The notes under the pieces are model-generated. The model was given only the letters and a program-made list of their open reading frames with translations. It was not told the DNA's origin and made no database searches. Below, piece by piece: positions 2,185-49,472 of a stretch of 64,000 nt of DNA. How positions within the stretch are numbered: the stretch's first letter is position 1; every line of letters begins with the position of its first letter. Both the position numbers and the translations under genes were made by a program. Source of the stretch: Piper betle (taxonomy: Eukaryota > Streptophyta > Magnoliopsida > Piperales > Piperaceae); contig JAURVB010013220.1 in the NCBI GenBank assembly GCA_033002965.1, forward strand, positions 173,791 to 237,790. Reading direction: 5' to 3'.

Positions 2185-3600
2185 TGTCATTAAAATTATT
2201 CAAATAGCCTACCACCTCTTTTCCCCCATCTCCTCTCCTCTTCTCCCCATAACCACCCTCTTCCTTCCAGCCTCCTCCTCATCCTTCCTCCTCCCCCACC
2301 TCATCATCCTCCTCCCCTTCTCCTCCTTCCTCTATGTTCTTCTTCCCTGCAAAGTACACTCTTCCCCCTCTCGTTTCTTTTTATTTTTGGGCATGTCATG
2401 ATGTGTTTGTATGTAGATCTCCTTGTTTAGGGATGTAGATGTGTAGATCATCATAATCATTTACATCTAATGATTTCTTGATAAACTTTTGATTTTCATT
2501 TGTAAAATGTGATAAATGCTTGTGTTTATGAAAAGTTGTAATCTACCTAATAACGGTCAAAACAAGAAAAAAATTAAAACATTGTAATTTTTTGCCGCAT
2601 TGATGTGACCTTGTTTTGCATACCAAATTGATTAAATAATTAAATAATTAAAATATTAATATTTTAACTTGTATTTGATTAATTAAAATAAAGGCGGCAT
2701 GAAAATCTTAAGTTAAAATAATAATTAACAATTATATTAACTAAATAAAATGTATGAGATTATTTTTAATATAATCTTCAATTAACGGGCAGACACAAGT
2801 AATATGTGTTTGATTAGACATCTCAACTTGCTTCAATAGAACCAACCAAATCTATTTGATTCAATATTTTTCAAGTTCTTATTATTATAATCAGGGTTAA
2901 TATAATTAATTGAGCCAACATCTCAAATTATTATTTTTAATTATTTGCTAAGATCTTATACTCGATTAGTGTTCTGGATATATCAAATAAAATTGCCCTG
3001 GAATCTCAATTGTAATTTGTTATTTCATGTTATCTTCAAACGTGGATTGAATCTCAGAATTTACTTCATAATGCGCCAAGATCTCTGTCTTAACATCTTT
3101 ATTTATTTTTATCAAATTTTATGCAATTATGATTATGATGCTCATTATGAAATGACGTGTTGTGAAGTGCTCTTTAAATTCCTGCCCTCCTTGCATGGCA
3201 TATCATTTGCTACATCTAAGATTGTCTTCATATCATCATATGCATATTATCATGAGTGAGAGTTGAATAGTGGGACTACGTTTGTTAAGTCGTGCGGAGT
3301 TGAGCTTGTCGAGATACGACATAGAGCTTTCCTCACTGGTTCATTAGGACTCTTGCTTGATCTGCTACTTGACTATATGTTGTTTTATTTTTATTTCGTA
3401 GGATGTAGTTAGTAGTATTTTATTAAATCCCACTACTTATTGGTCATCTAATCAATATTTCGGCTTGATAAAATTTCAAAGTTTAGATCACTTATGTGAA
3501 TTTCAAAGAACATGAGATTCAATTAAAATTTTACATAAGCACTATTTATCATACCCTTCCTAAGCCTTATAATTACTGTATGATTTCTTAATTTCTATGC
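2185..3600 (+). repeat. Diverged D-type LTR sequence, plus orientation
   Basis: No gene. A pyrimidine-rich run (2216-2370) mirrors the purine-rich run of the minus-strand D LTR (4776-4945). The block around 2815-2880 (CTCAACTTGC...CAATATTTTTCAAG) reads like the reverse complement of 4260-4320. The block at 3340-3475 (TTAGGACTC...GTAGGATGTAGTTAGTAG...CCCACTAC) matches the reverse complement of 61800-61900. Similarity is low and the ends are not defined. Confidence 0.4.
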
Positions 3601-5947: not shown

Positions 5948-6429
5948 TGTAAAACCTGTGACTCGAGTCAGAGTTTTACGGGAGTGAACCAGTCGGTTCA
6001 ACTGTCGGTTCGAGTCGAGTCAGCTTCATGGACCGCGAGCTGAGTTGAGGCCAGCTGTGAGTTATGAGCGATGAGGGTCATGTATGCTCAAATGTACGAT
6101 GATAACGCCTAAAAGATGATGAAAAATGGGTTATCAAGTATATGGAGGTATGCAGTATTGATTGTTATTTTTATTTGATCGTAGAATAGTTCTAGGCCGA
6201 ATAACGCATTAGGACGCGTTGGATTATATTCGGGTGGGCTATTAGTTATAGAGCATGCCATTTGGATGTTGTTGTGTTTGTTTTATTTTATGGAATTTTT
6301 CCATATTTTTCTAGATTTTTTTAGGATTTATTACGAACTAGTTATTATTTTGACTCGAGTAGGAATCGAGTCAATACTTATTTACGAAACTGCCATTGAG
6401 GATACTTCTCTTCCTCCCGACACTTACCC

Positions 6430-7080
6430 TTCCAAACCCTAGCCACGCCACCCATGGTCGTCGCCACTGCCGACGCCGCACTGCCGCCGATCAACGCCGC
6501 CCCGCCCCGCCGTGCAGTCGCCGTGCCGCCACGACCCACCCCGACCACCATCTCGCCGCCACGACGTCGGAATCGCCCCACGAAACCACCTCGGCCGTCG
6601 CCACTCCGAGCCAGATTCCGCCGCCGTCCGGGCCGCGCCGCCGCCGCTGTGGCCCTGACGACCACCCCCTCGCCGTCGCCGACGTTTCCCCCACCATCCC
6701 GACCGCCGTCGAGGCCGGGCGCAGCCTTGATCGGAGCACGCCGCCACCGCCAGCCCATTTTCGACGCCGCCGTCGACGGCCATCGCCGCCTCGGCTACCT
6801 TGTTTGACACCACCATCGGACCAAGCTCGTCGAGCTGGTGCCGATAGACCCCCTGATTGCTCCGTCCCGAATCGTCGCCGGAAAACCGCCGAGAAAATCG
6901 CCGACACTCGCCAGAAAACCGCCGGAACCGCCGGAAAATTGGATTCGTGGGAAATTCGCCGGATCATCCGCCGAACGCACCTGGTCCAATCTGATCGGAC
7001 TTCGGACGCCGCTAGGTGCCGAATTCGAGTTTCGAGCCACAAAACGGAAACCCTAGCCGTCGCCGATTTTCGACGACGCG
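6430..7080. repeat. GC-rich island in the A LTR
   Basis: About 650 bp of CpG-rich sequence with internal CGCCGGAAAACCGCC-type repeats, set in AT-rich DNA. It is preceded by a CCAAACCCTAGCC stretch and followed by GCGAGGTATAATTTATTTTA, which looks like a plant exon edge next to an intron start. Long overlapping open frames occur on both strands because stops are rare in such DNA. Equivalent islands occur at 13640-14230 and 53515-54170. Confidence 0.7.
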
Positions 7081-7545
7081 AGGTATAATTTATTTTAATT
7101 TAATTATTTGAAAGTATTGATTATTAGAATTGCATGCTAGGATTGGTGAATTGTATGTTATAATAATATATATAAATGTAGATTTGATTAAGGATAAAAT
7201 GTGAAATTTGCTTGATTGAGTGGTGTTAAAAATGGAGGCTAAGAAATAAATTAGGGTAACTAGGTAATGATCATGATCTAATGCAAATTAGCCTAAGTAG
7301 GCTTGCTAGAATTGATATAGGTTGATGTGTGTTGATTGATGCGTGATTGTGTTGATTGTGTGTGCATGCTATAGGATGTGTGATTCATCATGCGGGCGTT
7401 AGTTTTTAGCTTGATTGTGTAGGTACGGTGTAGGAGCTCGCCGCCTAGGCGCGTGGACCCGTGTGGAGCTTCTACCAGGTCCGTTTAGGACTCGTTCTCT
7501 GTTTTACGCTACTCTATTGTATATTTGATTTATCATGTGCAGGAT

Positions 7546-7581
7546 GAGTTAAGTGGCGTTTTATCGGATCCCACTTAACTC
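7546..7581 (+). promoter_or_regulatory. Conserved LTR hairpin
   Basis: GAGTTAAGTGG (7546-7556) pairs perfectly with CCACTTAACTC (7571-7581) around a 14-nt loop ending GGATC. The same structure is at 14694-14729 and 54636-54671. Related LTR families keep the loop wording but have different stems (see findings). Confidence 0.65.
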
Positions 7582-7690
7582 GGGCCATTTAGCGAACAGT
7601 TTTATTTCGGATTAATAACCCTCGAGGATGAGATCCCTCGAGTTTGTTTTCGAACTTCAGATCCAGCTCATGATGCCTTCGGGCCTATTG

Positions 7691-7697
7691 TATAAAT
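7691..7697 (+). promoter_or_regulatory. Likely TATA box of the A LTR
   Basis: TATAAAT within CCTATTGTATAAATCCC. It is kept in the other A copies (14839-14845, 54781-54787) and in the E left LTR (39060-39066). It is the best promoter candidate in the 3' half of the LTR; the start site is not provable from sequence. Confidence 0.5.
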
Positions 7698-8793
7698 CCC
7701 AACCCAGGCCTATATATGTATAGTTTTCGTGTTTTCGGTGAGAGATGGGATGAGGGGTACTTGCGGCCACGTCTTCAGATAGGGCGTGTGCTCGGAAGAG
7801 CGGGCTCTGGAGCTGGGGAGAACCCACTTCGTTCCCGAAGGATCCGGACAACTCCACCTTTGAGTTCCTCAAACCCGGAGAAGTGTGGAGGTTTACGGGT
7901 ACTGCAATGCAGCGCATGTCTAGACTTGTGGTTCAAAGGGTACTGAAGGCGACTGCCTGAGAGTGCTCGGCCTTTGTGCTCAAGGCCAGGAGTAATATGG
8001 AAGGTGCAGAGGGCGGTAAGGAATGAAATTTGATGCGAGAAGCGATAGAGAAATGGCCAAGGTATGAGAATGAGAAAGAAAGGGGGATGCTGTCGACCCG
8101 ATGGCGACGGCTCCGACGTATGTGCCTTGATGAGAGTTCTTGAGGAAGTATATGGTTTTGATTCAACAGGAGAGTTTGCTCTCCTGTGCCAGATTGATAT
8201 TAGTTATTTTCCGGGCCGGTAACACTCGTTGCTGACGGTTTTTCTATATATATGTAGGTGAGGAATGCGAGCGATGAAAGCTGTCGGGACTGCGGAGGAG
8301 CAGCACGGAACCGCGCACACATGTACCTGCCGCGTGTAACGTATGTATAATGATGGTATGTTATTGTTATGTAAATGATAATTTTGATGTGTTTGCTTGA
8401 ATGAATTACTTGTTATGAAACGAACTGATAAATATGAATGAGTAGGGAGCCTTGGAGTTCAGACTCGGCTCGGGTAAAAACGAATGAGATAATGATTTAA
8501 TGTCAATGTAGATTGTTATGTGTTATCGTATTTTCATAAAATAGTATATATTTTCTTTTGGTTTCTCATTTGTTGTTTTGTCTTATTTTGCTTGTACATC
8601 ATAGCATGCATGTAGGACTCCGTTAGAACCCAATCGTTCCCATTCATGCATGTCATATTTGCATCTCCATCTTGAGACGCCGAGAGTAGATCCTGGTCGG
8701 CTTATCCGAATCTAGTAGATTAACGAACGGTTCGGTCGCCGGTGACATTTCCGGGTTGGTTCACGGGTGAGCCGAAACGGGGTGTTACAGGAG

Positions 8794-8850
8794 TGGTATC
8801 AGAGCCAACTCTTGGCACATGTTCTCTGATACCAACAATTGTATCAGAGC
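8794..8850 (+). other. Primer-binding site of A with inverted and direct extra copies
   Basis: TGGTATCAGAGCC begins four bases after the LTR (8794) and matches the complement of the plant initiator-Met tRNA 3' end, the usual primer for minus-strand DNA synthesis. It is followed by an exact inverted copy, CTCTGATACCA (8824-8834), and a second direct copy, TTGTATCAGAGC (8839-8850). The first two can form a perfect 11-bp hairpin. Confidence 0.9.
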
Positions 8851-9020: not shown

Positions 9021-10258
9021 ATGGTGACACAGACCCGTCGGACGCAGATCTGGACCCCATCGCCTCCAGTAGTCAGACAGGATAGTCCCGACCATGGTCA
9101 CAGTGACACAGCTTCCAGTCAACCTAGGACCACCATGCCACCAGCAGAGACGAGTGTACCGGTATCAGCAAGTCGTCGCACGGAGAGTCATTGCCGAGAC
9201 AGTCGACGCGACAGTCACCGCAGTGGGAGTAGTCGACAGGAAAGGGATGCTGCAATAGCTAGGCTAGTTGAGGTTCAGATGCAAATGCAGCAGAATCAGG
9301 AGGAATTTAGGAGAGAGCTCAGACAGATAGCTCTATCAGTGGCTAGAGTAGAGAAGAGACCAGTCATGGATGAAGAGGCGCAAGGAGAGCCACTGGCGCC
9401 CATGGGCCCTCAGCCACCACCTCCTCCTCCACCGCTGCAACAGGGAACTACCCCCGCAACTCTAGTTGCCTCACTTCAGGCAAGGATGAGACAGGACGCC
9501 GGTGGACCTGCGATAGCAGGTAGCGGGCAAACCGTAGGGGGAGTAGAGCAGTTGGAGGTGACAGTGTACCAGTTGGTACGGGATCACAGATTCCTCGTTA
9601 TGAGCAAGCAGAGGGATCAAATAGATCTGTAGATGTGAGGAGTTTGGAATTGTGGCAATATGAAAGATTCGTGAAGAATGGCGGACGACCTTTCTTTGGG
9701 AAGTTGGATGCTGAGGAGGCATTCGTATGGATATCGTGGGCCATAGGAGTGTTTGATAGTATGGCATGCCCCGTAGAACACAGAGTGCGCGTCGTTACAT
9801 GAGCATTCCAAGACGAAGCGAGGATATGGTGGAGTTCGGTGCAGAATTCTGTATTCGCTCATCGCCAGCCTCAGGACATCACTTGGGAGGAATTCAGAGT
9901 GGAATTTGATGGAAAGTATTTTCCACCAGATGTTAGGAGAAGGAAGGAACGAGAGTTCCAGATGTTGAGGCAAGGGCCTATGACAGTAGTACAGTATGAG
10001 ACGAGTTTCAGAGCATTGGAGAGATTCGCACCAGATTTGGTTCCAACCGAAGGAAGAAGAATAGAGCGCTTCTATGAAGGCCTCCATCATGAGATCTGTT
10101 ACAGTTGCGGTCAACCGGGACATAGGGCTACAACGTGTCCGACTAGCCAGAGCCAGCAGTTGACACTCCCAGCGCCTCAGTAGAGACTTGCACTTCCAGC
10201 TCCCCAGCAGCAGTCACAACAGAGAGGCCAACAGGGCCATGGACAAGGCCAGAGAGGT
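9021..10258 (+). pseudogene. gag: Element A gag (capsid/nucleocapsid), broken
   Basis: The first frame starts at ATG 9021 (MVTQTRRTQIW) and runs to 9632. It holds a Ser/Arg-rich head, a Gln-rich likely coiled stretch and a run of seven prolines. A frame change near 9625 shifts to a frame with a TGA at 9800-9802 and TAG at 10181-10183. That frame carries the retrotransposon gag core (ITWEEFRVEF, then REFQMLRQGPMTVVQYETSF to about 10100). A CCHC zinc knuckle (CYSCGQPGHRATTC) comes immediately after HHEI, whereas gypsy Gag usually has a linker of the order of 100 residues there, so an in-frame deletion is likely. Gag forms the virus-like particle in the cytoplasm; this copy cannot. Confidence 0.85.
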
Positions 10259-11222
10259 GGATCTTGCCATCAAGTTGATGCCTGGCACAACCCCAATTTC
10301 GAGAGCTCTGTATAGGATGGTACCTCTGGAGCTCAAGGAACTGAAGGAACAACTACAGACACTGTTGGACCAAGGATTCATCAGACCGAGCGTTTCCCCT
10401 TGGGGCGCACCAGTGCTATTTGTGAGGAAGAAGGATGGAAGCATGCGGTTATGCATAGATTATAGGATGCTAAACCATGCAACAGTTAAGAACAGATACC
10501 CTCTTCCTCGTATTGATGATTTATTTGACCAGTTGAGCTTAGTAGTTGTCTTTTCGAAGATTGATTTGAGATCAGGATACTACCAACTGATGATTAGAGC
10601 AGAAGACATCCCGAAGACTGCGTTCAGGAAGAGATATGGACACTACGAGTTTCTGGTCATGCCGTTTGGATTGACCAATGCTCCAGCAACATTTATGGAC
10701 TTGATGAACAGAGTGTTCAATCAGTACTTGGAGCAGTATGTGATCGTCTTTGTGGATGACATACTGGTATATTCTTCATCTAAGGAAGAACATGTGCAAC
10801 ACCTGAGGATTGTGTTGCAAACACTGAGAGAGCATAGGTTATATGGGAAATTTTTGAAGTGCAGTTTCTGGTTGTCAGAGGTGAATTTTCTTGGCCACAT
10901 CATCTCAGCATCAGGCATCTCAGTGGATCCAGCTAAGATAGAGGCAATAGTGCAGTGGGAACAACCGAAGACGCCTACGGAGGTTCAGAGTTTTCTGGGA
11001 TTGGCTGGATACTACAGACGGTTCATTCTGGACTTCTCTTCCATAGCAGCCCCTCTGACGCGACTGACTAGGAAAGAGGAACGGTTCATATGGACAGACG
11101 AATGTGAGCGGAGTTTCAAGAGGTTGACTTCGGCACCTATCCTCGCATTGCCTGAGGGACATGAGGATTTTGTAGTGTATACTGATGCCTCAGGGATTGG
11201 CTTAGGTTGTGTTTTGATGTAG
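10259..11222 (+). pseudogene. pol: Element A pol: reverse transcriptase (protease missing)
   Basis: Open frame 10188-11222; the real pol part begins near 10259 ([14 protein letters not shown]). RT signatures are in order: [66 protein letters not shown], and the catalytic FVDD (10749-10760). The start of RNase H (TDASGIGLG, 11181 on) is in the same frame, then a TAG at 11220-11222. No aspartic protease (DSG/DTG) lies between the zinc knuckle and RT: the gag-side sequence runs straight into the RT linker and the frame changes at the join. The enzyme would copy the element RNA into DNA. Confidence 0.9.
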
Positions 11223-12230
11223 AAGGATAAGGTTATTGCTTATGCATCTCGTCTGCTCAAGGTGCATGAGCGTAACTATCCTACTCATGACCTAGAACTT
11301 GCTGCAGTCATATTCGCTTTCAGAATATGGAGGCACTATCTATATGGGACATCTTTCAGACTTCTAACTGATCACCAGAGTCTGAAATATATCTTCACGC
11401 AGAAGGATCTGAATAGCAGACAGAGGAGATGGTTGGAGATGTTAGCTGATTACGAGGTCGACATAGCATACCATGAGGGCAAAGCAAATGTGGTAGCCGA
11501 TGCATTGAGCAGGAAGCCAGGATTCTTGTACACCGCAGGATTAGCAGCATTGTCAGTGACCGAGCACACTACGAGCCAGAGACAGTTAGTTGGGATGATG
11601 GCGCGACTTACGATTCATCCAAGCATGCTTGAGCAGATTCGGATTGCACAGGAGGCAGATCCGCAGTTGAAGCAATGGTTGGAACACGGAACACATCAGG
11701 AATTGGCCAGGGATACAGACGGATTAGTCAGATTGAGAGGCCGACTATTCGTGCCTAATGTTCTAGAGTATCCCGGACTTCGAAGTACTATTCTTCACGA
11801 AGCTCACACGTCGAGATGCTCAGTACACCCAGGTGGAGTGAAGATGTACCACAATATCCGACGAACCTATTGGTGGCCAGGAATGAAGAGAGAAGTATAC
11901 GATACAGTGGCTAGATGTTTGGTATGCCAGCAAGTGAAAGCCGAGCACGTACGTCCAGGTGGAATGCTACAACCGTTGGAAACTCCAGAGTGGAAGTGGG
12001 AGAGTGTAGCTTACGACTTTGTAGTTGGTTTACCTAAGACCCGCCAACAAAAGGATGCGATATGGGTCATAGTGGATCGACTTAAAAAGAGTGTACACTT
12101 CATACCGATCAGGATGGACTACCCACTGACCACATTGGCTACGCTGTATAGAGATCAGATAGTCAGGTTACACGGCGTTCCACGGGAGATCATATCAGAC
12201 AGGGATCCGAGGTTCACATCGTGATTTTAG
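11223..12230 (+). pseudogene. pol: Element A pol: RNase H and first part of integrase
   Basis: Continues the RT frame after the TAG. RNase H landmarks are HDLELAAVIFAFRIWRHYLYG, LLTDHQSLKYIF and VVADALSRKPG (to about 11520). The integrase zinc-binding HHCC follows (HEAHTSRCSVHPGG ... CLVCQQVK, about 11797-11940), then the core with its first Asp in YDFVVGLPKT and second in IISDRDPRF. Two in-frame stops lie six bases apart, TGA 12222-12224 and TAG 12228-12230. Integrase inserts the DNA copy into the chromosome; this copy is inactive. Confidence 0.9.
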
Positions 12231-12868
12231 AAGGCTTTTCTGGCAGCTATGGGCACAGAATCGAGATTCAGCACAACTTTCCATCCTCAAATAGACGGAC
12301 AGACGGAAAGAACCATACAGACCCTGGAAAACTTGCTTCGCGCATGTATCCTGGATTTCAGAGGGAGTTGGGAAGAACACCTACCTCTGGTGGAATTCTC
12401 CTACAATAACATCTATCAGGCCACAATTGGAATGGCACCATTCGAAGCATTGTACGGTAGACCATGCAGATCCCCAGTGTGTTGGGTGCAGGGCAGCGAA
12501 CCATAGTAGTTGGGCCAGAAATGATCCAGCAGACACAAGAGGTGGTAATGAGGATTAGAAGAAGAATGAGGTCAGCTGAAGATAGACAAAAGAGTTATAC
12601 AGATCAGCGCAGACATGAGGTTCATTTCGCGTTAGGAGATTACGTTCTCCTGAACATCTCTCCGACTAAGGGAAACACGAGATTCGGGACGCGAGGGAAA
12701 CTCAGTCCGCGCTATATTGGACCCTTTGACGTGATTGAGCGCATTGGACCAGTGGCATATAGGCTAGCATTGCCTCCTCACCTATCAGCTGTGCATGATG
12801 TCTTCCACGTGTCAATGTTGAAGAAGTATCACCCTGACAACTCTCATGTTGTCAGATTCAAAGAGTAG
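12231..12868 (+). pseudogene. pol: Element A pol: integrase core end and C-terminal domain
   Basis: Same frame to TAG 12504-12506, with the third catalytic residue in GQTERTIQTLE (35 residues after the second Asp, the classic D35E spacing) and [17 protein letters not shown] frameshift near 12500 moves to another frame ending at 12868, which carries [48 protein letters not shown] and [13 protein letters not shown]. This is the DNA-binding tail of gypsy integrases. Confidence 0.85.
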
Positions 12869-13159: not shown

Positions 13160-15947
13160 TGTAAAACCCATGACTCGAGTCAGAGTTTTACGGGAGTGAA
13201 CCAGTCGGTTCAACTGTCGGTTCGAGTCGAGTCAGCTTCATGGACCGCGAGCTGAGTTGAGGCCAGCTGTGAGTTATGAGCGATGAGGGTCATGTATGCT
13301 CAAATGTACGATGATAACGCCTAAAAGATGATGAAAAATGGGTTATCAAGTATATGGAGGTATGCAGTATTGATTGTTATTTTTATTTGATCGTAGAATA
13401 GTTCTAGGCCGAATAACGCATTAGGACGCGTTGGATTATATTCGGATGGGCTATTAGTTATAGAGCATGCCATTTGGATGTTGTTGTGCTTGTTTTATTT
13501 TATGGAATTTTTCCATATTTTTCTAGATTTTTTTAGGATTTATTACGAACTAGTTATTATTTTGACTCTAGTAGGAATCGAGTCAATACTTATTTACGAG
13601 TTTGCCATTGAGAATACTTCTTCTTTCTCCCGACACTTACCCTTCCAAACCCTAGCCACGCCGCCCACGGTCATCGCCGCCACCGCCGATCAACGCCGCC
13701 CCGCCCCGACGTGCAGTCGCCGTGCCGCCACGACCCACCCGGACCACCATCTCGCCGCCACGACGTCGGAATCGCCCCATGAAACCACCTCGGCCGTCGC
13801 CACTCCGAGCCACCCTGACGACCACCCCCTCGCCGTCGCCGACGTTTCCCCCACCATCCCGACCACCGTCGAGGCCGGCTGCAGCCTCGATCGGAGCACG
13901 CCGTCACCGCCGCCCATTTTCGATGCGGCTGTCGACGGCCATCGCCACCTCGGCTACCTTGTTTGACACCGCCATCGGACCAAGCTCATCGAGCTGGTGC
14001 TGATAGACCCCCTGATTGCTTCGTCCCGAATCGTCGCCGGAAAACCGCTGACACTCGCCGGGAAAACCGCCGGAACCGCCGAAAAATTGGATTCGTGGGA
14101 AATTCGCCAGATCATCCACCGAATGCACCTGGTCCAATCTGATCGGACTTTGGACGCTGCTAGGTGCCGAATTCGAGTTTCGAGCCACGAAACGGAAACC
14201 CTAGCCGTCACCGATTTTCGACGACGCGAGGTATAATTTATTTTAATTTAATTATTTGAAAGTATTGATTATTAGAATTACATGCTAGGATTGGTGAATT
14301 GTATGTTATAATAATATATATAAATGTAGATTTGATTAAGGATAAAATGTGAAATTTGCTTGATTGAGTGGTGTTAAAAATGGTGGCTAAGAAATAAATT
14401 AGGGTAACTAGGTAATGATCATGATCTATTGCAAATTAGCCTAAGTAGGCTCGCTAGAATTGATATAGGTTGATGTGTGTTGATTGATGCGTGATTGTGT
14501 TGATTGTGTGTGCATGCTATAGGATGTGTAATTCATCATGCGGGCGTTAGTTTTTAGCTTGATTGTGTAGGTATGGTGTAGGAGCTCGCCGCCTAGGCGC
14601 GTGGTCCCGTTTGGAGCTTCTACCAGGTCCGTTTAGGACTCGTTCTCTGTTTTACACTACTCTATTGTATATTTGATTTATCATGTGCAGGACGAGTTAA
14701 GTGGCGTTTTATCGGATCCCACTTAACTCGGGCCATTTAGCCAACAGTTTTATTTCGGATTAATAACCCTCGAGGATGAGATCCCTCGAGTTTGTTTTCG
14801 AACTTCAGATCCAGCTCATGATGCCTTCGGGCCTATTGTATAAATCCCAACCTCGGCCTATATATGTATAGTTTTCGTGTTTTTGGTGAGAGATGGGATG
14901 AGGGGTACTTGTGGCCACGTCTTCAGATAGGGCTTGTGCTCGGAAGAGCGGGCTCTGGAGCTGGGGAGAACCCACTTCGTTCCCGAAGGATCCGGACAAC
15001 TCCACCTTTGACTTCCTCAAACCCGGAGAAGTGTGGAGGTTTACGGGTACTGCAATGCAGTGCATGTCTAGACTTGTGGTTCAAAGGGTACTGAAGGCGA
15101 CTGCCTGAGAGTGCTCGGCCTTTGTGCTCATGGCCAGGAGTAATATGGAAGGTGCAGAGGGCGGTAAGGAATGAAATTTGATGCGAGAAGTGATAGAGAA
15201 ATGGCCGAGGTATGAGAATGAGAAAGAAAGGGGATGCTGTCGACCCAGGGCGACGGCCCGACGGCAACGGCTCCCGTATGTGCCCTGATGAGAGTTCTTG
15301 AGGAAGTATATGGTTTTGATTCAACAGGAGAGTTTGCTCTCATGTGCCAGATTGATATTAGTTATTTTCCGGGCCGGTAACACTCGCTACTGATGGTTTT
15401 TCTATATATATGTAGGTGAGGAATGCGAGTGATGAAAGCTGTCGGGACTGCGGAGGAGCAGCACGGAACCGCGCACACATGTACCTGCCACGTGTAACGT
15501 ATGTATAATGATGGTGTGTTATTGTTATGTAAATGATAATTTTGATGTGTTTGCTTGAATGAATTGCTTGTTATGAAACGAACTGATAAATATGAATGAG
15601 TAGGGAGCCTTGGAGTTCAGACTCGGCTCGGGTAAAAACGAATGAGATAATGATTTAATGTCAATGTAGATTGTTATGTGTTATCGTATTTTCATAAAAT
15701 AGTATATATTTTATTTTGGTTTCTCATTTGTTGTTTTGTCTTATTTTGCTTGTACATCATAGCATGCATGTAGGACTCCATTAGAACCCAATCGTTCCCA
15801 TTCATACATGTCATATTTGCATCTCCATCTTGAGACGCCGAGAGTAGATCCTGGTCGGCTTAACCGAATCTAGTAGATTAACGAACGGTTCGGTCGCCGG
15901 TGACATTTCCATGTCGGTTCACAGGTGAGCCGAAACGGGGTGTTACA
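13160..15947 (+). repeat. 3' LTR of element A
   Basis: Same TGTAAAAC...GTGTTACA ends as the 5' copy, 2788 bp. The main difference is a ~39-bp deletion in the GC island, at the join near 13808, plus scattered substitutions. It keeps the hairpin (14694-14729) and TATAAAT (14839-14845). Confidence 0.95.
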
Positions 15948-18826: not shown

Positions 18827-20779
18827 GACGCCCTCCAACCTAGCTTTCATTCGCATTCTCTTCTCCTCTTCCTTACCGGCGTGTCTTCTTCCTTGCTTAG
18901 GTATTCTTTCAATCCCCCTCTTTTTAATTTTCTTGCATACATATTTTAAGTTGATAATAAGCTGTATAATCGCAAGGATTAAAGTTTAAAATCAACAAGA
19001 AAGAAACTAAACAGAAATTAAAGTTTAATTTGGCCGACAAGTCCCATGTTTCGGCGAGATGGGTAAGCACAGGCGAGGTTGCGCCGGGAATCAGTGGCGA
19101 TGGTCGTTCCGACGTCGAAAGATGATCCTACTCTCTTCGTCGATCAGTGTAGGGTCAATCTCACGTGTGTGCATGTCAGCCTGGGGTGGTAAATGGCCAA
19201 AAACAGAGGATGGCGGCAAAAACAGAGGCTACGGCGGTGGGGGAAGAAATCCAGCCGTCTTGGGTGGCGACAGGTTTAAATATGGCCGGGGAAGGTAGAT
19301 AGGTGGTCGAGGGTGTCGAGGCGACCACCCAATTGAGGCGGCAACGCTTGGGCAAGCGATGCGGGTGTTGCCGCTGGTTGGAAGACGGCCAGAGTTGGCT
19401 GGGGCAACACCGCAACGGCATAGCAGGGCTGGAAGGCGACGATGGACAGCGGCCGGAGGTGGTCGGCAGGGGCGGCGGCGGCTGGAGGGCCACTGGAGTC
19501 GGGAACAGAGCATGCTGGAGAAGAAGAAGGAAAATAATTACCTTGGGTGGCAAACTTGTAAATAATACTTGACTCAAAATAGCACGAGTTAAATAATAAT
19601 ACCAACTTGTAAATAACACCTGACTCGATACCGACTCGAGTTAAAAATAATTCGAACTCGTAATAAATCTTTAAAAATAATTATTTTAATGGGTTATGGG
19701 TTAAAGTTACTAAATTAATTAATTATTGGATGAGGTCAACATGGACATAAGTAATAAAAATACAGTAATGATAAACGGTCGATAATTAATCAGTATAATA
19801 AAAGCGATTAAATTAAATCAGACGGTTATAAGTGATTAACAAAATAAAGATTTTACCTTTACCTTATCAAATTTAATATTAGGTAAATAAAGTGATTATT
19901 TTAATAACGAGTAAGTAATGTAGAAAATGAGTTATTAAACTATAGTCGGGTAGCAATCACTAGCACCGAACCTAAAAAGAATAATGAAAATAAATAAAGT
20001 TCGAAACTTTATTGTGTCGAATAATTTAAAATAATTGTATTAATAATATTATTTAATAATACACATTATTTTGAATAATTTAATTGATCAACTTAATTAA
20101 TTAAATTGCTATAAATAATAGTAGCGATTAAAAATTATAACCGTAAACTAAATCATCAAGATCGGGGTAAGTAATTATCATTGCAAAGGAAATTAAATAT
20201 TTGTTGATTAGTAATAATTATTTTGTCCATTGTTAAGTATTAATTAAGATTTAGATAATTAATTTAAAATGTGAAATAGGACTTAAATGATTATGGCATA
20301 GGAATAATTAATTATCTCACTAGATTTGTTGATAATTTAATATTTAATATTTTTGGAAATGATATATATATTACATATTTAGTTGCATGCATTCCTACTC
20401 GAATAAAATTATACTTATGTATAATTTTATATTCTCGTTTAGATTAGAATCATTGGTCGCAGCTGCGAGTTCAAAATATCCAAGTCTGTATAATCATTTG
20501 AAATGTTGTACTTTCCCTTGTTAGCAGCCCTGGTCGGCCTGAGCCCAGATTGTATCACCATGCGTTGTAATGCAATCAGGGTCAAGGAATTGACTCAGTC
20601 CGACACGGGGCCACACCTTTAAAATTACTATGTGTGTTACTATGGGTGTGCTTATAATTAATTGAAATGTTGTATTTACCCAAACTGGTATAATTATATA
20701 AAATGTTGTATTTTCCCAAATTGGTATAACTATATGAAATGTTTTATTATCCCAAATTGGTAGCCTTTGTCAGCACTAA

Positions 20780-21205
20780 TCTCAGAATGAGCTAGAGATG
20801 ATTTTTAATCTCAAAATGAAGTGCTCAGAATGAGCTGGGAGACTATTTCTAATCTCAGAAGGAATTAGGAGACCATGACTAATCTCGAAATGAATTGGGA
20901 GACCACCTAATCTCAGAATGAGCTGGGAGACAATTTCTAATCTTAGAATGAACTGGGAGACCATGACTAATCTCAAAATGAATTGGGAGACCACTTAATC
21001 TCAGAATGAGCTAGGAGACGATTTCTAATCTCAGAATGAACTGGGAGACTATGACTAATCTCAAAATGAATTGGGAGACCACCTAATCTCAGAATGAGCT
21101 GGGAGACATTTTCTAATCTCAGAATGAGCTGGGAGTCGACTTTTACTAATATCAAAATGATCTGAGAGACAAGTTACTAATCTCAGAATGACCTGAGGGA
21201 TAATT
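20780..21205. repeat. Minisatellite, ~28-30 bp unit, about 15 copies
   Basis: Imperfect repeats of AATCTCAGAATGAGCTGGGA followed by GAC and a short variable tail, with a loose higher-order alternation of GAGCTGG, GAACTGG and GAATTGG types. The same repeat is at 49215-49430 with fewer copies. Followed by a (TAA)n run at about 21218-21236. Confidence 0.9.
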
Positions 21206-21633
21206 ACTCTGTACTTGTGTAATAATAATAATAATAACGAGTAAAATGATAATAGGGATTACATTGACTTGTTTCATTTAATTATGCGGCTTAGTGGTTT
21301 TATTACTAACGTGGAATTGCCTCTGCAGGTGAGCAGCTTTGGGACTAAAGAATAGGAGTGTGGTTAGTGGTTCTTTTACCAACCCAGGTATGGTGAATCG
21401 ATAATAAAGTTGGACTTCCTTATTATTCTCTGGTGTTATAAATGTGGCTATGGGAAATGGTCCCAGACTGTGGGATGGTTATTTTAAATTTTAAAGAACA
21501 TGATTTATTTTTATGCTTTATATTATATGTTGCAGGACTATGTGCTGTATTTAAATTCATGTTCTGGAAGGTTACATTTACATTAACTATATTTTTTAAG
21601 TAACACTTGGTCTGGTTCGGGCGGGTCGTTACA

Positions 21634-21638
21634 CTTCT
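21634..21638. other. Target-site duplication of the nested C LTR, right copy (CTTCT)
   Basis: Matches 18611-18615; the outer C LTR continues directly with CTTGCTTAGGTATTC. Confidence 0.92.
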
Positions 21639-23325
21639 TCCTTGCTTAGGTATTCTTCCTATCTCCCTCTTCTTAATTTTCTTGCATGCATATTTTAATT
21701 TGATAATAATCTTTATAATCGTGAGGATTAAAGTTTAAAGTCAACAAGAAAGAAACTAAAATTTGCTGACGAGTCCCCTATTTCGGCGAGATGGGAAAGC
21801 ATGGGCAAGCCTTGCCAGGAATTAGTGGCAACGGCCGTTCTGACATCGGGAGATGTTCCTACTCTCTTCGCCGATCAATGTAGAGTCGATCTCATGTGTG
21901 TGGATGCCGCCCTAGGGTGGTAAATGGCCAAAAACAGAGGATGGCGGCAAAAAAGAGGTGTGGCGGTGGGTGAAGAAGTCTGGCCGTCCTAGGTGGCGAC
22001 GGGTTGCAATCTGGCCCGGGAAGGTCGATAGGAGGTCGAGGGTGTCGAGGCAACTACCCAATTGAGGCGGCGACGCTCGCCGATGGTGGAATCAGTGACG
22101 CGAGCTCACCGCTAGACACTGAAACGGAACGGCGGAGCTGGACGGCGAAGATGGACGGCTACCAGAGGTGGTCGGCGGTGGCAGCGGTTGGAGGGCGCCT
22201 GGAGTCGGGAACAGAGCATGTCGGAGAAGAAGAAGGAAAAAAATTACCTTGGGTGGCAAACCTCTAAATAATACTTGACTCAACACAGCTCGTGTTAAAT
22301 AAAAATACCAACTCGTAAATAACACCGGGCTCAATACCGACTCAAGTTAAAAAATAATATTAACTCGTAATAAATCTTTAAAAATAATTATTTTAATGGG
22401 TTATGGGTAAAGTCACTAAACTAACAAATTATTGTATGAAATCGCCACGAGTAATAAAAATCCGGTAATGATAAATGGTCGATAATTAATAGGCGTAATT
22501 CAAGCGATTAAATTAAATCGGAGGGTTATAAGTAATTAATAAAATAAAGATTTTACCTTTACCATATTAAATTTAATATTAGGTAAATAAAGTGATTATT
22601 TTAATAGCAAATCAGTAATATAGAAAATGGGTTATTAAACTATAGTCGGGTAGCAATCACTAGCGTCAAACCTAATAGCATAATGAAAATAAATAAAGTT
22701 CAAAATTTTAATGAGTCGAATAATTTAAAATAATTAATTTAATAATATTTTTAAATTAGAATAATACAAATTATTTTAAATTAGTTAATCGCACAACTTA
22801 TTTAATTAAATTGCTATGAATAAGGATAGCGATTAAAGATTTAAAACCATAAACTAAATTATCAAGATTGTGGTTAAGTAGTCATCATCTCAAAGGAAAA
22901 TATACTAATAATAGAAATTAAATATTTTTTTATAAGTTGATAATTATTTTATTATTTGTTAAGTGTTTATTATGATCTAGATTATTAATGTAAAGTATGA
23001 TTTAAATGATTATATCACATGAATAGTTTAATATTCAATATTGTTGAAATTTAATAGTGATATACATATTAGTCATTTAGTTGTATGCATTTCTACTCGA
23101 ATAAAATTATACTTATGTATAATTATATGTCCTCGTTCATATTAGGATCATTGGCCACAGCTACAAGTTTGAAATATCCAGGTCCGTATAATTATTTAAA
23201 ATGTTATATTTTCCATTGTGGACAAACTGGTCAGCCTAAGCCCAGATTCGACCACAATGCACCGAGTGCAACCGGGGTTAAGGAATTGACTCAGTCTGAC
23301 AGGGGCTACGCCCTTTATAATCAAA

Positions 23326-24040
23326 TAATGGACATGATGGACTGACCCATTAGCCAATAAATTGGACATGGCGGATTGGGCTCACTAGCCAATTACAGAC
23401 ATGGTGGATTGGACTCACCAGCCGATAACGGACATGGCGGATTGGACTCACCAGCCAGTAATGGACATGATGGAATGACCCATCAGCCAATAAATTGGAC
23501 ATGCCGGATTGGACTCGCCAGCCAATTACAGACATGGTGGATTGGACTCACCAGCCGATAACAGACATGGCGGATTGGACTCGCCAGTCGGTAATGGACA
23601 TGATGGACTGACCCATCAGCCAATAAATTGGACATGGCAGATTGGACTCGCCAACCAATTATGGACATGGTGGATTGGACTCACCGGCTGATAACGGACA
23701 TGGAGGATTGGACTCGCTAGCCGGTAGTGGACATGATGGCCTACCCATCAGCCAATAAATTGGCCATGGTTGATTAGACTCGCCAGCCAATTACAGACAT
23801 GGTGGACTGATCCATCAGCCAATAGATGGACATGGTGGATTGACCCATCAGCCAACTAATGGACATGGTTGATTGGACTCACCAGCTGATAACGGACTTG
23901 GCGGATTGGACTCGCCAGCCGGTAATGGACATGATGGACTGACCCATCAGCCAATAGATGGACATGGTGGACTGACCCATCAGCCAACTAATGGACATAG
24001 TGAACTAAACCATCAGCTAATAAATGGACATATTGGAACG
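23326..24040. repeat. Minisatellite, ~33 bp unit, about 20 copies
   Basis: Repeats of the type GGACATGGCGGATTGGACTC followed by (A/G)CCAGCCGATAAC, with a variant GGACATGATGGACTGACCCA. It sits in the same place in the LTR (between the GGAATTGACTCAG box and the GGAATTGCC box) where other C copies carry a different repeat. Several short open frames across it are artefacts of the repeat. Confidence 0.92.
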
Positions 24041-25892: not shown

Positions 25893-26046
25893 TGTAACGA
25901 CCCAGCCCAAAGTGCCACGTAATGGGCTAAGTCATTTCTTTAACATGGGTACCCCGGAAGTTAAAGATCTATAGTCCATTCCCACTTATAAATAGGATCT
26001 TCTCCCAGTAGGTATTAGATGTGGGACTAAGTTGAGGGATCTCACA
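25893..26046 (-). repeat. TRIM LTR 1 (3' end on the minus strand)
   Basis: 154 bp, nearly identical to the other two. It carries a TATA-like TATTTATAAG (25985-25994, minus strand). Confidence 0.92.
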
Positions 26047-26083
26047 ATCCACCCACCTTAGGAAATTTCGTCCCCGAAATGCC
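26047..26083 (-). other. TRIM polypurine tract and conserved motif
   Basis: On the minus strand TTTCGGGGACGAAATTTCC then TAAGGTGGGTGGAT abuts LTR 1. The first part closely resembles the motif before the PPT of A, E and F. Confidence 0.8.
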
Positions 26084-26260
26084 TATTCTTGGCCCGTTGC
26101 TAGCCCCAACCCACGTCCTTTCTGGCCCGTGACCGGCAGCCTAGCCAACATTTCTAGTCTTAGCCCGTTGCTATCCCCAGCCCGCGACCTTTTGGCCCGT
26201 GACCGGCAGCCTAGCCAACGTCCCTAGTCCATCCCACTATCTAACACAGAACCAGGTCGG

Positions 26261-26273
26261 CTCTGATACCATT
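26261..26273 (-). other. TRIM primer-binding site (first interior)
   Basis: Minus strand TGGTATCAGAGCC directly after LTR 2, matching initiator-Met tRNA. The second interior has a TGGTATCAAAGCC version at 26571-26583. Confidence 0.85.
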
Positions 26274-26426
26274 TGTAACGACCCAGCCCAAAGTGCAACG
26301 TAATGGGCTAAGTCATTTCTTTAAAATGGGTACCCTGGAAGTTAAAGATCTCTAGTCCATTCCCACTTATAAACAGGATCTTCTCCCAGTAGGTATTAGA
26401 TGTGGGACTAAGTTGAGGATCTCACA
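26274..26426 (-). repeat. TRIM LTR 2 (shared middle LTR)
   Basis: 153 bp; missing one G of a GAGGGATC run relative to the other copies. Confidence 0.92.
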
Positions 26427-26583
26427 ATCCACCCACCTTAGGGAATCTCGTCCCCGAAATGCCTATTCTTGGCCCGTTGCTAGCCCCAGCCCACGACCTT
26501 TCTGGCCCGTGACCGGCAGCCTAGCCAACGTTTCTAATCTAGCCCACCATCTAACACGGAACTAGGTCGGCTTTGATACCATT

Positions 26584-26737
26584 TGTAACGACCCAGCCCA
26601 AAGTGCAACGTAATGGGCTAAGTCATTTCTTTAACATGGGTACCCCGGAAGTTAAAGATCTATAGTCCATTCCCACTTATAAATAGGATCTTCTCCCAGT
26701 AGGTATTAGATGTGGGACTAAGTTGAGGGATCTCACA
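26584..26737 (-). repeat. TRIM LTR 3 (5' end on the minus strand)
   Basis: 154 bp, followed by the CACTC duplication at 26738-26742. Confidence 0.92.
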
Positions 26738-27543
26738 CACTCACTCTCTTATTCGTGAAATTCATAAAAATACATGTATTCATGTAATAGGCTTAGGAAA
26801 GAGGCTTGTATCATATATTTTTAGAGCTTCAATTTGAAAACCAATAAAGGATCTCATCCTTGTAGTTTTATTAAATATGTGTAGAAAACATAGCTAAATA
26901 GCCCAACATAGGAGGGATCTGATAAAACACCACCGATGTCGTCCTACATCTAACAAATGATTAAACTCGATACGCAGGGAGTCAAGCAAAGATCAAACAA
27001 AGGGAGAGTCTTACGGACTTGTGGTCCAAGCTCCAAGCACATCAACACATTTATGACAAGCTCGAACTACGTAACCTACATCGAAACCCACTACTAAGTA
27101 AAATACTGATGTCTCCACATGATGCATGCTCGTGGTGTATGCTCATATCATCAATACATCACAATAAAGAAAACAATACTAACAAACCTATAACTAAATT
27201 TGTGGCACACAAATCTAGACATAATAATAATAAATAAATAAACAAGAAAATGCACTCATAGATAATTAGATAAATAAAAAATACATAAATATGAACAATA
27301 CTCCAATCATAAAATAATAATATAATTATATTATATAAATATACAAGTCAACACGAGTAAATATCAACAAATATTCATTTAGTAAACATATAAATAAAAA
27401 AATATAAATATATAATAATTCAATAAATAAATAAATAAATAGTTAATACACATTAATCATGAATATTAATAATATCAAAGTCATACAATACTAGAATACA
27501 TAATTAACTACAAATAAATAATAACAAACACATACGAACAAAT

Positions 27544-34283: not shown

Positions 34284-36703
34284 TGTAAAATCTGAGAATT
34301 TTATTTCTTTTAAGTTTTTTTACACGTTTGGCTTTTGGGTTGAACCGATGGTATAGGTCGAACTTTAACTACCCGGTCCACCTCCGGCCACCGGATTGGT
34401 ACAGCCGTGACCACCTCGTGGCCGGCTATTAGTCCGTCGGCGACCGAGTTTTTTATCACTGTTCATCATCGCCGCCACCACCGTTTGGATCTTTTCCGGT
34501 GCCAGTGAGGCACCTTCAGCTGATCTGACCACCCACACAATTTCCCCTTGCCAAGATCTTCCCTTTGAGTTTGACATCAACCTCTGTTGTGGCCACAATC
34601 GTTGCCAGAGACGTCACCACTCCTATTAGCAAAACTGTTGCTTTCTGGCCGTTTATCATCAGACCAGCGATCTGGCTTCACCGATCATCACCGCCATCAT
34701 ATTCCTCATCCTCCCCTCCATCAATCTTGACTACCGGCGACCCAAGCAGTGCTGCCATCGGCATTTTCCGACGATGAGAACTGGCAGCCCTCCACCTGAC
34801 CGATTTGCCTGGTTCACCATTCGCGTCTGCTTATTCAAGTACTATTTGTGTCTGTGGCCATGTATCCGCATCCACCTACCTGGCCAGCACTGTTCTTTGA
34901 CTTGGCTGAGTCGGCTCAATTGACTTTCACGGGTTGACTCGGTTCGCCATTTAAACCAGATTTCAGCCATTTTTCGATCGTTTTCGGTAATTCGTAAACC
35001 CTTACATTAGTTTATATGCATATTCATATTATTTAGCATAACTTGATATTATAAGTGTTTTTATTTATTTATTTATTTATTTTTATTTATATGTTTATCA
35101 TATATGATGTATGTTTACATGATCATTTGTTATTATTGATATTATATTTATTTATTAATGTCAATCCTTTTATATTTACTAAATTGCATATATTGATTTA
35201 TTTATTTATTTACTTGTTCGTTGTGAGTATGTTATTATTTCACTATACGTAATTACATATTTTGTAATGATGACTATGATATTATTATTATTCATGAGTA
35301 ATTAAAATTAAATAATTTTTTATTTGTTTATTTTTTATTTATTTAATTATTTATTTATATAATAATTATGTATTTACTTATTTAATTGTTTATATGATTA
35401 CTAACACGTGTATATATAATATTTACTCGTGTTTATCTATTTACATATATACTATATCATATTATTATTTTATAATTAGAGTATTGCTTATTTTTATGTA
35501 TTTATTATCTATCTATTTATTCGTGATTGTATGTATTTATTTATTTATTATTTGTTATTTGTTATTATTTATTTTCTTGATTATGTCTCGATTTACGTGT
35601 TGTTTGTTTAACGGTATGCTTATTTAGTATAGTCTTTTTATTATGATGTATTGATCATGTGAGCACACACCACGGGCATGCATCATATAGAAAAGTCAGG
35701 ATTTTCTTAGCAGTGGGTTTCGTTGTAAGTTACGAAGTCCGAGCTCACCGTAGATGTGTCAATCTGCTTGGCGCTTGGACCACAGGTCCTTAGGACTCTC
35801 CCTCTCTACTTAATTCCTTGTGTGTCAAGTTTAATTGTGTTTTATACGTAGGACGAGATCGGCGGCATTTTATTTCATCCCTCTGATGTCGAGCCGTTTA
35901 GCTGTGTTTTCTACACGTTCAATAAAACTACAAGGATGATATCCCATGTTGGTTTTTGAATTAAAGCTCTATAAATGTATGATACAAGCCTCTTCCCCAA
36001 GCCTATTATATAAGTACGTACATTTTTACGGATTTCACAAATAAGAGAATGAGTGGTACAGAGATATGTATGGACCACACCAGTACTCCTTCAAACCTTG
36101 AGGTAGTGTTGTGTATGAGAGTACAATGTAATGCAGTGCATTTCTAGAATTTGTGGGACTAACTTAACTGTTATTTTTGCCACTCGAGTACTGTGGTGGA
36201 TGATATGAAAGATGTGAGGGTGTGAGGGTGAAAGTGTTGTATGTATGAATATGATTATGAGTTGCGCATGCAAGCCGGCACTTGCTTAAGTATGCTTGCT
36301 TACCGCCCAGTGTGAAGCAATCTTGAAGTTTCATAAGTTTCATGGGTAATGGAATACTCATTTGCCAGTTTGTATTAGTTATTTTTCGGACCAATAGCAT
36401 TTGTTAATGACTTTTTTCATATTATATATGTAGGTCATGCAATCTTGAGTCGACTTTGGTGGGAGGACAAATAAATACTACACACACTTGAGCTCACTGC
36501 AATTATTAACTTTGTTACTTTTATTTATGTTCGATGTGTTTTGACGTGCATTTAATGGTGTCTTCCTTTCTCATGACAACAAGAAGGTTGTTTCAATATA
36601 TTGTATCGATCAAGTCATAGTAATCGACAACTTTAAACATGACTCGATTCGATCACAACATTTCTGATTCGATTTTTAAGTGAACCGAAATCAGGGTGTT
36701 ACA
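34284..36703 (+). mobile_element. B-type LTR (solo), plus orientation
   Basis: Starts TGTAAAATCTGAG and ends GAACCGAAATCAGGGTGTTACA, 2420 bp. It aligns by eye with 58180-60671: the ACCACCTCGTGGCCGGCTAT block (34408 versus about 58909), the TCGGTAATTCGTAAACCC block (34985), the TTATTTATTT-rich zone (35055-35560), the hairpin zone (35850-35893), and the CAATAAAACTACAAGGATGA zone (35919). The 5' part is shorter than in other B copies. Neighbours CAAGT and CACAC do not match, so the target duplication is lost or the start is misplaced. Confidence 0.7.
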
Positions 36704-37467: not shown

Positions 37468-39595
37468 TATAAAACCCACGATTCGAGTCAGGGTTTTATA
37501 TTCAGAACTGGTCGGTTTGACCATTATTTTTGAGTTGAGTCAGTTTCGGAACACGCGTACTGAGCTGACGCCAGTCGCGTCTATGAGCTATGGGGGTCAT
37601 GCGTACCCAAGTATATGATGATAACGCTATGAACAGAGCAGAACAGAATGCGTTATCAGAATATATGAGAGTATGCTAGTTATTTTTCTTTATTTTATTT
37701 TTATATACAGTGGATCGTAGAAATAGTTTTAGGCTGTTTACCGCGTTAGGACGCATTACGGGTAGTTTGGGTGGGTTGATAGTTCTAGAGCATATCATTA
37801 TGATGTTTTGGTGTTTGTTTGATTTTTGGGATTTTTCCCGATTTTTATGAAATTTTTTTAGGAATTACGGCGACTTAATTATTATTCTTGACTCGAGCCA
37901 AAGACGAGTCAAGTAATATTTACAAGTTTGCCACCAGCCCTTTTCTTCGCCCCCAACGCTTTCTTCCCCAAACCCTTGCCCCGACGCCACCCCCGTGCAG
38001 TGTCACAGCAGCCGCTATCGACCCTAGCCTTCTGCCGGTCATCGTTGCCATGCTCCGCCGCGGCGGTGCCGTGCCACCTCGAGCGCCCCGGCCTCCACGA
38101 CGCCGGATCGCCATGCCAAGCGCCGCGCCCACGTTGCACTTGCGTCGCCAATTCTACCGCCAACGACCGTCGTAGCTGCCATCCAGTGGTCACCTCGACA
38201 CCTTTGACTCACGACCCTCCCTGACTGAAGCAAAGGCCATCGCCGCCTAGGCCGGCCGGATCTAGCCACCCACCATTGTCGCCTCTGTTTTAGCCATTTG
38301 TCGGCGACCACCTCGGCCGACCACATCAACATCATGGACGTGTCGGGCACGCCGAGCCGGTTCCAATGGTACCCAATATGATCCCTATCCAGCCAGTAGA
38401 AGCCGCCGGAAAGTTGCCGAAAAACCACCGGAACCCCCCATAAAACTAGATTTTCATGAATTTGGCAGATCATCCACGAGTTCATCCAGTCGAACCTGAT
38501 CGACTTTTATGGCGCCAAGCATCAAATTCGAGCTCTGAGACGAGTGTGAAACCCTAACAGTTGTGGACCGCCTACAATGAGAGGTATAATTACCTCCTAT
38601 TTGATTATTTAAACTTGTTGATTGTTAGCATAGCAAGTTAGGATTGATTAATTATCATGATAAATGTTTGACTATGGATGAAGTGATAATTGCATGATGC
38701 AATTAATAGAGAATGAATAGTACATGATCTAATAAGGTAGATCGAGTCTGAGCATGATAAGTGACCACAACGTAACTTAGAAAAACACAGTAAAATCGGT
38801 AGGAGCTCACTGCCTAGGCACGATGACACGCTTGGAGCTTCTACCAGGTCCATTTAGGACTCGTCTCTGTTTTATGTTCTCTTCTATTGTATGTTTATTT
38901 TATCATTTGCAGGACAAGTTAAGTGGTGTTTTATTGGATCCCACTCAACTCGGGTCATTTAATCGAACAGTTTTCCAGATTAATAACCCCTCAAGGATGA
39001 GATCCCTCGAGGATGATTTTGAAAACAAGATCCACCACAAGTTGCCTTCGGGCCTATTATATAAATCCCTTCCCAGGCCTATATCGAGTTTTAAGTAAGA
39101 TGAGAGATGGAGAAACCAATTGCACGTACCATGAGCGGATGTCGTGATAGTCAAAGCGGGCTCTGGATTAGTGCAACAAAGTGTTCCATTCCCGAGGGAT
39201 CCTGATAACTCCGTGTTTGAGTTCCTCACATCTAGACAACGTGGAGGTTTATGGGTACTGTTTAGTACAGCGCATGTCCAAACTTGTAGTTTAAAGGGTA
39301 TTAAAGGTGACTGCCAGAGAGTACTCGACCTTCATGCTCAAGCCAGGAGATATATGGAGGTAAGGAGAGGGCTTAGGATTCGAGACCAGAAAATGAAGTA
39401 AGAAAATGCCGAGAGAGGCATCAGCAGCAACAGATTAGTCAGTTCAGAATTCTACCGGGTCTGCAACCCAGTGGCTCCTCAATAGGTCCTTAAGAGTGTT
39501 CACGATGAGTATCTGATATTTTCTTTCATATGAGAGTTTGCTCTCATAGCCAACTTGTTATAGTTATTTTATTTTCCGGAATTTGGGATGTTATA
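37468..39595 (+). repeat. 5' LTR of element E
   Basis: Starts TATAAAACCC (G to A at base 2 of the usual TGTA) and ends GGGATGTTATA. Compared with the right LTR it lacks ~130 bp before the GAGCTC block (near 38800) and ~120 bp near the end (the join at about 39580). It keeps TATAAAT (39060-39066). Confidence 0.8.

Positions 39596-49440: not shown

Positions 49441-49472
<32 letters not shown>

Follow-up and report, generated by a model that had tools for sequence, protein, structure and literature searches.

The LTRs in the 64-kb window (the whole stretch of DNA that was analysed) carry a hairpin, here called HP2, that was found in ten copies from families A, E, B, F and D, at the same LTR place in each. 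Its arms differ between families and remain paired, and the loop, the 3' flank and an AATAAA-like motif downstream are conserved. It is very likely that the pairing is under selection, and probable that RNA is the form on which this selection acts. The reading we favour, with a probability of roughly 0.4, is that HP2 is an RNA hairpin kept by selection within the transcribed R part of a Ty3/gypsy LTR, that it shares a structured region around the AATAAA-like motif with the hairpins HP1 and HP3, and that it governs poly(A) use in a retrovirus-like manner. In broader terms, the region is best read as a retrovirus-like RNA control region within a long R segment, which would bear on how 3' ends are processed or on the choice of the RNA to be packaged.

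The window holds nested plant LTR retrotransposons. One of these, element A1, has TG...CA LTR ends and a primer site (TGGTATCAGAGC, a string that matches initiator tRNA-Met), and its domain order is RT, RNase H, integrase (PF00078, PF17919/PF17917 and PF17921, in 10164-12224). The integrase C-terminal SH3 (PF24626) lies in 12461-12865, and the integrase end gave a chromodomain match (PF00385, 12838-13092; E 1.5e-4) of 22.1 bits, under the curated cut-off of 25.1. The element is Ty3/gypsy; the label Tekay is that of the first-pass annotation. All organisms named among the 120 RT relatives listed are plants, names being absent from most rows. Four contigs that are recorded as parts of Streptomyces, Mycobacterium, Geminicoccus and Solirubrobacter genomes encode an RT that is 65-69% identical to that of this plant element, and are probably plant DNA contamination. 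Other repeats in the window include a block repeated in tandem within the B2 LTR region on the minus strand (25893-26737, with primer-site matches at 26570-26581 and 26260-26271) and short tandem arrays (23322-24031 and 20776-21208) that lie in or next to a further repeat family, which occupies 18885-23321 and is related to 48107-49868.

Table 1. Position of the hairpins and of the sequence signals discussed in the text
Feature	Position	Strand	Basis
A1 LTR, TGTAAAACC...GTTACA (GTTACA at 8784-8789)	5948-8789	+	self-comparison and motif search
Primer-binding site TGGTATCAGAGC, after the A1 LTR	8794-8805	+	motif search
GC-rich exon-like block, starting near a pyrimidine-rich stretch and AAACCCTAGC; common to A and E	6434-7082	+	composition, alignment; predicted
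Donor-like GAG then GTATAATT, ending the GC-rich block; common to A and E	GT at 7083	+	predicted
AT-rich intron-like block, ending TGTAG then GT	7083-7422	+	composition; predicted
HP1, stem GTAGGAGCT / AGCTTCTAC; in B1 GTCCGAGC / GCTTGGAC	7430-7475	+	alignment, covariation tests
Acceptor-like CAG then GA at the HP2 foot, cut 7542/7543	7540-7544	+	sequence
HP2 copy A1, 12-pair stem, loop CGTTTTATCGGATC	7545-7582	+	pairing, alignment, covariation
HP2 copy A2	14693-14730	+	pairing register and covariance model
HP2 copy A3	54635-54672	+	pairing register and covariance model
HP2 copy E1	38915-38952	+	pairing register and covariance model
HP2 copy E2	44618-44655	+	self-comparison/motif search, pairing register, covariance model
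HP2 copy B1	35854-35891	+	pairing register and covariance model
HP2 copy B2	26904-26941	-	pairing register and covariance model
HP2 copy F	51567-51605	+	pairing register and covariance model
HP2 copy D1	3404-3441	+	pairing register and covariance model
HP2 copy D2	61805-61842	-	pairing register and covariance model
Conserved flank GGCCATTTAG, directly 3' of HP2	7583-7592	+	alignment
AATAAC, aligned with AATAAA in B1, B2, F and D2	7614-7619	+	alignment
HP3, CTCGAGG / CCTCGAG, loop ATGAGATC; weaker covariation	7621-7642	+	covariation tests
HP4, CAGGAGAG-TTTG-CTCTCCTG; in E1 and E2 TATGAGAG-TTTG-CTCTCATA	8167-8186	+	suggestive
Branch-point-like CTGAC, T-rich tract, acceptor TATGTAG	8232-8257	+	similar in A1-3, E2, B1, B2 and B3; predicted

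The first-pass annotation had listed eight places for the hairpin; all eight hold sequence as described, and E2 and B2 were added here. In one fixed register the number of Watson-Crick and G-U pairs out of 12 is 12 in A1, A2 and A3, 11 in E2 and D2, 10 in E1, B1 and B2, and 9 in F and D1. MAFFT, to which the structure was not supplied, aligned the ten copies with gap-free arms, the sole gap being due to one additional loop base in copy F. The loop (TTTTATYNGATC) and the 3' flank (GGGCCATTTAR) are largely kept in sequence and the arms are not, in line with the earlier remark that the loop wording recurs across families; at one pair (columns 163/195) G-C, A-U, C-G and U-A all occur.

The earlier claim that the stems differ by compensatory change is supported: an arm pairs far better with its own partner than with that of another family. 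When arms were swapped between eight copies (family A being represented by one of its three near-identical copies), the observed Watson-Crick total was reached in 23 of the 40320 permutations and the total including G-U pairs in 44 of 40320; with only A2, E2, B2, F, D1 and D2, 4 of 720 reached the observed number, and arm swaps in slid registers gave no signal. We also used a phylogenetic null in which substitutions were placed randomly on a tree built from the flanks (2000 simulations, our own simplified version of the R-scape idea); this test and the shuffle test used all ten rows, with gaps set aside. Paired cells amounted to 88.3% for HP2, against 60.6% (sd 6.0) in the simulations, and double-change cells to 18 against 5.0 (sd 2.5), and neither value was reached in any of the 2000 simulations. 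A weaker count, that of pairs with any double change, was reached in 94 of 2000. Among the ten copies of the window we therefore found neither a lack of covariation beyond phylogeny nor a majority of unpaired copies, the two outcomes that the first-pass annotation had named as speaking against its proposal of a selected RNA or DNA structure, and pairing, covariation and the tree null all support that proposal.

Models of the hairpin point the same way. A covariance model made from the ten copies finds those ten in the 64 kb and nothing else up to E = 1. When the model was trained on A2, E1, E2, B1, B2 and F, leaving family D out, D1 and D2 scored 52.1 and 50.0 bits, compared to 32.3 and 28.5 bits with a sequence-only model, a gain of about 20 bits; as the general scoring of the two model types is not the same, which A2 illustrates (94.9 versus 81.0 bits), the stem may account for only part of this gain. 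RNAalifold, a check that had been proposed for the surroundings of the loop, predicted HP2 unaided, together with the cores of HP1 and HP3. Single-copy folding was compared with 1000 shuffles for eight of the ten copies (all except A1 and A3): the number of shuffles that did as well was 0 for A2, 1 for E2, 4 for D2, 16 for E1 and 34 for B2, and 58, 107 and 141 for B1, F and D1, respectively. The first five folds are convincing and the latter three are not clearly better than shuffles, so that the case for HP2 rests on comparison and not on every copy alone. On the sense strand of the LTR, G-U cells outnumber A-C cells by 26 to 8 (seven of the G-U cells being one shared position), which leans to RNA as the structure.

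HP2 is the middle one of a row of three hairpins, in each of which about 88% of the cells pair. HP1 and HP3 were chosen by eye before testing. For HP1, HP2 and HP3 combined, 88.4% of the cells are paired (shuffled mean 77.4%), double-change cells number 28 (shuffled mean 10.1) and the covariation score is 0.344 (shuffled mean 0.167), and with partners slid by 1-3 columns only 34-52% of the cells pair, versus 88% in register. Separately, the support for HP1 and HP3 is modest: under the phylogenetic null their paired cells were reached in 33 and 37 of 2000 simulations, and their pairs with a double change in 181 and 327 of 2000. Arm swaps put HP1 at the maximum but tied (12 of 120, for the five copies that remain with A1, A3, E1, F and D1 set aside) and gave no support for HP3, where 816 of 5040 do as well (seven copies, with A1, A3 and E2 set aside). 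The single-sequence minimum-energy fold of 7408-7670 contains HP2 and HP3, and HP1 is absent from it. A kissing contact between the HP2 and HP3 loops via GATCCC/GGAT was rejected by eye, as it is not conserved in D.

A further hairpin, HP4, was chosen by eye and by a scan, before testing, and is suggestive as a conserved hairpin. A and E differ in it by two matched double changes; at this place B1 and B3 carry another hairpin. The scan of A versus E for stems with a double change gave 16 (E1) and 20 (E2), values inside the range of the control (means of 8.8 and 7.8, maxima of 18 and 21); from it only HP4, with its two double changes, was kept, and the control also reached such values. At the start of the A1 LTR (5948-5980) we observed an inverted repeat (TGTAAAAC...GTTTTACG; in E1 TATAAAAC...GTTTTATA) with one matched double change.

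The string ATAA, 25-31 bases 3' of the HP2 stem, is invariant in the ten copies (10/10). The motif around it reads AATAAA in four of ten, AATAAC in four, AATAAG in one and GATAAA in one, and begins at LTR position 1667 in A1. Upstream, the A and E LTRs read like a plant 5' leader with introns, namely a GC-rich exon-like block followed by an AT-rich intron-like one. Near 6420-6440 both families share a pyrimidine-rich stretch and AAACCCT(A/T)GC. The donor-like site of A1 stands at a sharp composition border (GC 0.56-0.80, then 0.21-0.38); B1 has a similar plan (GC 0.44-0.56, then 0.05-0.21, with GTAATT at 34987), B2 has both blocks with a border that lacks a clean donor, and in the composition of D1 and D2 a clear GC-rich block is missing. 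Directly before HP2, YAG then GA occurs in 9/10 copies (D2 has no AG), with a T-rich stretch upstream in most copies (8-17 T of 25). A second acceptor-like site, TGTAG then GT, lies 5' of HP1 and 120 bases upstream of the one at the HP2 foot in A1, A2 and A3, and has its equivalent 5' of HP1 in E2 and B2; it is also found in B3, which has no HP1, and is absent from B1, D1 and D2. A third (TGTAG or TATAG then GT, after a T-rich tract) was seen at 8257 in A1 and at equivalent places, with a branch-point-like CTRAY in six of the seven copies read (A1, A2, A3, E2, B2 and B3, not B1). According to a review, plant LTR elements are generally without introns, Ogre and EVADE being exceptions (PMC12786077), and a study in sunflower describes spliced RNAs of two other expressed elements and no expressed Tekay element (PMC7730604).

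Some other observations concern the same part of the LTR. A dyad at 6350-6374 (TTGACTCGA...TCGAGTCAA), upstream of the supposed start site, is nearly invariant in A and E. The block 7835-8014 is about 84% alike between A1 and E2; a protein-coding reading of it was rejected, the frame of A being broken in E by indels and stops. A single deletion has removed the whole HP1-HP3 region from LTR B3, and a short AAGTT-like repeat is common to both of its ends (60270-60320 versus 35731-36328). The deletions in B3, F and E2 were also considered as traces of splicing and rejected as such by eye, as their junctions show short shared letters and no clean GT-AG.

In the favoured reading, transcription would start near 6420, in front of the GC-rich block, which would place the hairpin region within R and thus at both ends of the full-length RNA. 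HP2 would begin an exon directly after an acceptor site and would offer its loop and flank to Gag or to a factor of the host that processes RNA; with HP3 it would govern the use of the poly(A) signal between them, so that the signal would be ignored in the 5' copy of the LTR and obeyed in the 3' copy, as happens with the R-region hairpins of retroviruses. The positions of transcription start, splicing and poly(A) addition are all predictions from the sequence. The covariation of HP2, the stem gain of family D, the presence of three hairpins, the G-U excess, the invariance of ATAA, the YAG-GA string of nine copies, the exon- and intron-like composition with the donor common to A and E and the acceptors common to A, E and B, and the similar layout assigned to Retrosat2 of rice support this reading; the exact AATAAA is present in only four of ten copies, is dispensable for plant poly(A) sites and lies outside the stem, which counts against it. 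Further points against it are the composition of D1 and D2, the B2 border, the weakness of HP3 alone, the tie for HP1 and its absence from the minimum-energy fold, the choice of HP1, HP3 and HP4 by eye, and the lack of a copy in 27 related loci, most of which have little or no LTR.

The closest known parallel is found in HIV-1, where TAR and the poly(A) hairpin are stem-loops beside an AATAAA signal in the terminal repeat; R hairpins and the selection of the polyadenylation site were reportedly the subject of work by Das, Klaver and Berkhout in 1999. Stem-loops beside an AATAAA-type signal in a terminal repeat are what the two systems share. The HIV-1 poly(A) hairpin, however, holds AATAAA inside the hairpin, whereas here the motif follows the stem; moreover, the host is a plant, R would exceed 1 kb, and the present case is known from sequence. 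In HTLV-1 and BLV, the 3' part of the LTR RNA likewise combines AATAAA with RNA structure, in the region of the Rex response element; we know of no Rex-like protein for this plant element. Among plant elements, Retrosat2 of rice also has a very long LTR, to which a short U3, an R of 2 kb and three AATAAA were assigned from sequence, the first at LTR 1684-1689 (PMC3485330), close to the position of the AATAAA-like motif in A1; the words hairpin and intron occur nowhere in the main text of that paper. Plant poly(A) sites do not need AATAAA, and generic LTR models use AATAAA with a downstream GT-rich stretch and count stem-loops among the sources of the residual conservation that long R regions show, plant Metaviridae lying outside that modelling according to its conclusion (PMC3601003).

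A rather doubtful alternative is that the region serves dimerization and packaging of the genomic RNA, with HP1 and HP4 spliceable, so that only unspliced RNA would be packaged, and with the GATC of the HP2 loop as contact. A hairpin with a conserved loop within the predicted leader would suit this, as would the location of HP1, with an acceptor-like site on either side, and that of HP4, 5' of the branch-point motif, and introns in an LTR could persist only if the packaged RNA were unspliced. The retroviral dimer initiation hairpin has a self-complementary loop, and GATC is found in eight of the ten HP2 loops; this self-complementarity is, however, lost in B1 (CATC) and D1 (AATC). In addition, splicing within the LTR is a prediction, and part of the region may be in U3. 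A combined version, in which a leader with LTR introns holds packaging hairpins removable by splicing (HP1 and HP4) and exon hairpins that set poly(A) use (HP2 and HP3), all kept by pairing across families, seems to us unlikely as a whole.

A location in U3 is central to the next alternative, in which HP2 is a DNA dyad, bound by a dimeric protein or extruded as a cruciform, just 5' of a TATA box. A TATA-like stretch is present at 7691-7718 in A1, with TATAAAT and TATATATG about 110-130 bases downstream of HP2 in A and similar strings in E1 and B1; if it is the real promoter, the hairpin would lie in U3, and this is the main point against the R-region reading. Palindromic motifs 5' of the TATA box have been reported in Sireviruses, Ty1/copia elements in which such motifs are conserved, non-coding and repeated, most of them with a CGG-CCG core (PMC2829016). 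They resemble HP2 as conserved palindromic non-coding motifs in plant LTRs, yet HP2 occurs once per LTR copy, has changing arms and shows no fixed CGG-CCG core (compared with the description in PMC2829016). A protein that reads sequence would not easily allow arms to change while pairing stays, the conserved part is the loop, G-U pairs outnumber A-C, and B2, F and D2 have not retained the TATA-like stretch, so that we regard a DNA dyad as decidedly unlikely.

We are very doubtful that HP2 controls the splice acceptor at its foot instead of a poly(A) signal. The YAG-GA string with its T-rich upstream stretch and the alternative acceptor 120 bases upstream would fit such control, but the acceptor is predicted from sequence, D2 lacks the AG, and the upstream string is absent from B1, D1 and D2. 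Template-switch mutation, which is known to copy one arm of an inverted repeat onto the other, could in principle have changed the arms together during reverse transcription or replication (quasi-palindrome correction) in the absence of structural selection, and the matched changes that adjoin each other in HP1 (AG/CT to CC/GG), like those found in HP4, would fit this, but it is highly improbable for HP2, which differs at many separate pairs with G-U pairs and mismatches left between them in imperfect arms, has a conserved loop and flanks, and shares its pattern with other hairpins.

A search of the genome contigs gave 27 related Ty3-type loci, of which seven had a primer-site match, indicating that most hold little or no 5' LTR. 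In these 27 loci one covariance model (R1) had no matches at E up to 5, and in 14 of them a second (R2) had none better than E 1.8. Four further matches of model R2 in the window (15.9-18.1 bits, E 0.25-0.92) were treated as chance. Viral contigs gave no matches for the RT, the hairpin pattern or the RT alignment. Rfam 15 had no matches in the window at the gathering threshold, and among the matches listed in a literature search that lay mostly outside subscription papers we found no named element of this kind, which agrees with what the first-pass annotation had stated.

RNA control structures of plant LTR retrotransposons are, in our judgement, little known, none having been found among the literature matches listed. 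With a hairpin whose pairing has been kept across families by compensatory change, and with intron-like signals around it, this region is a defined site at which to study how mRNA and genome are kept distinct in such elements, and how 3'-end formation distinguishes between two LTRs that are alike.
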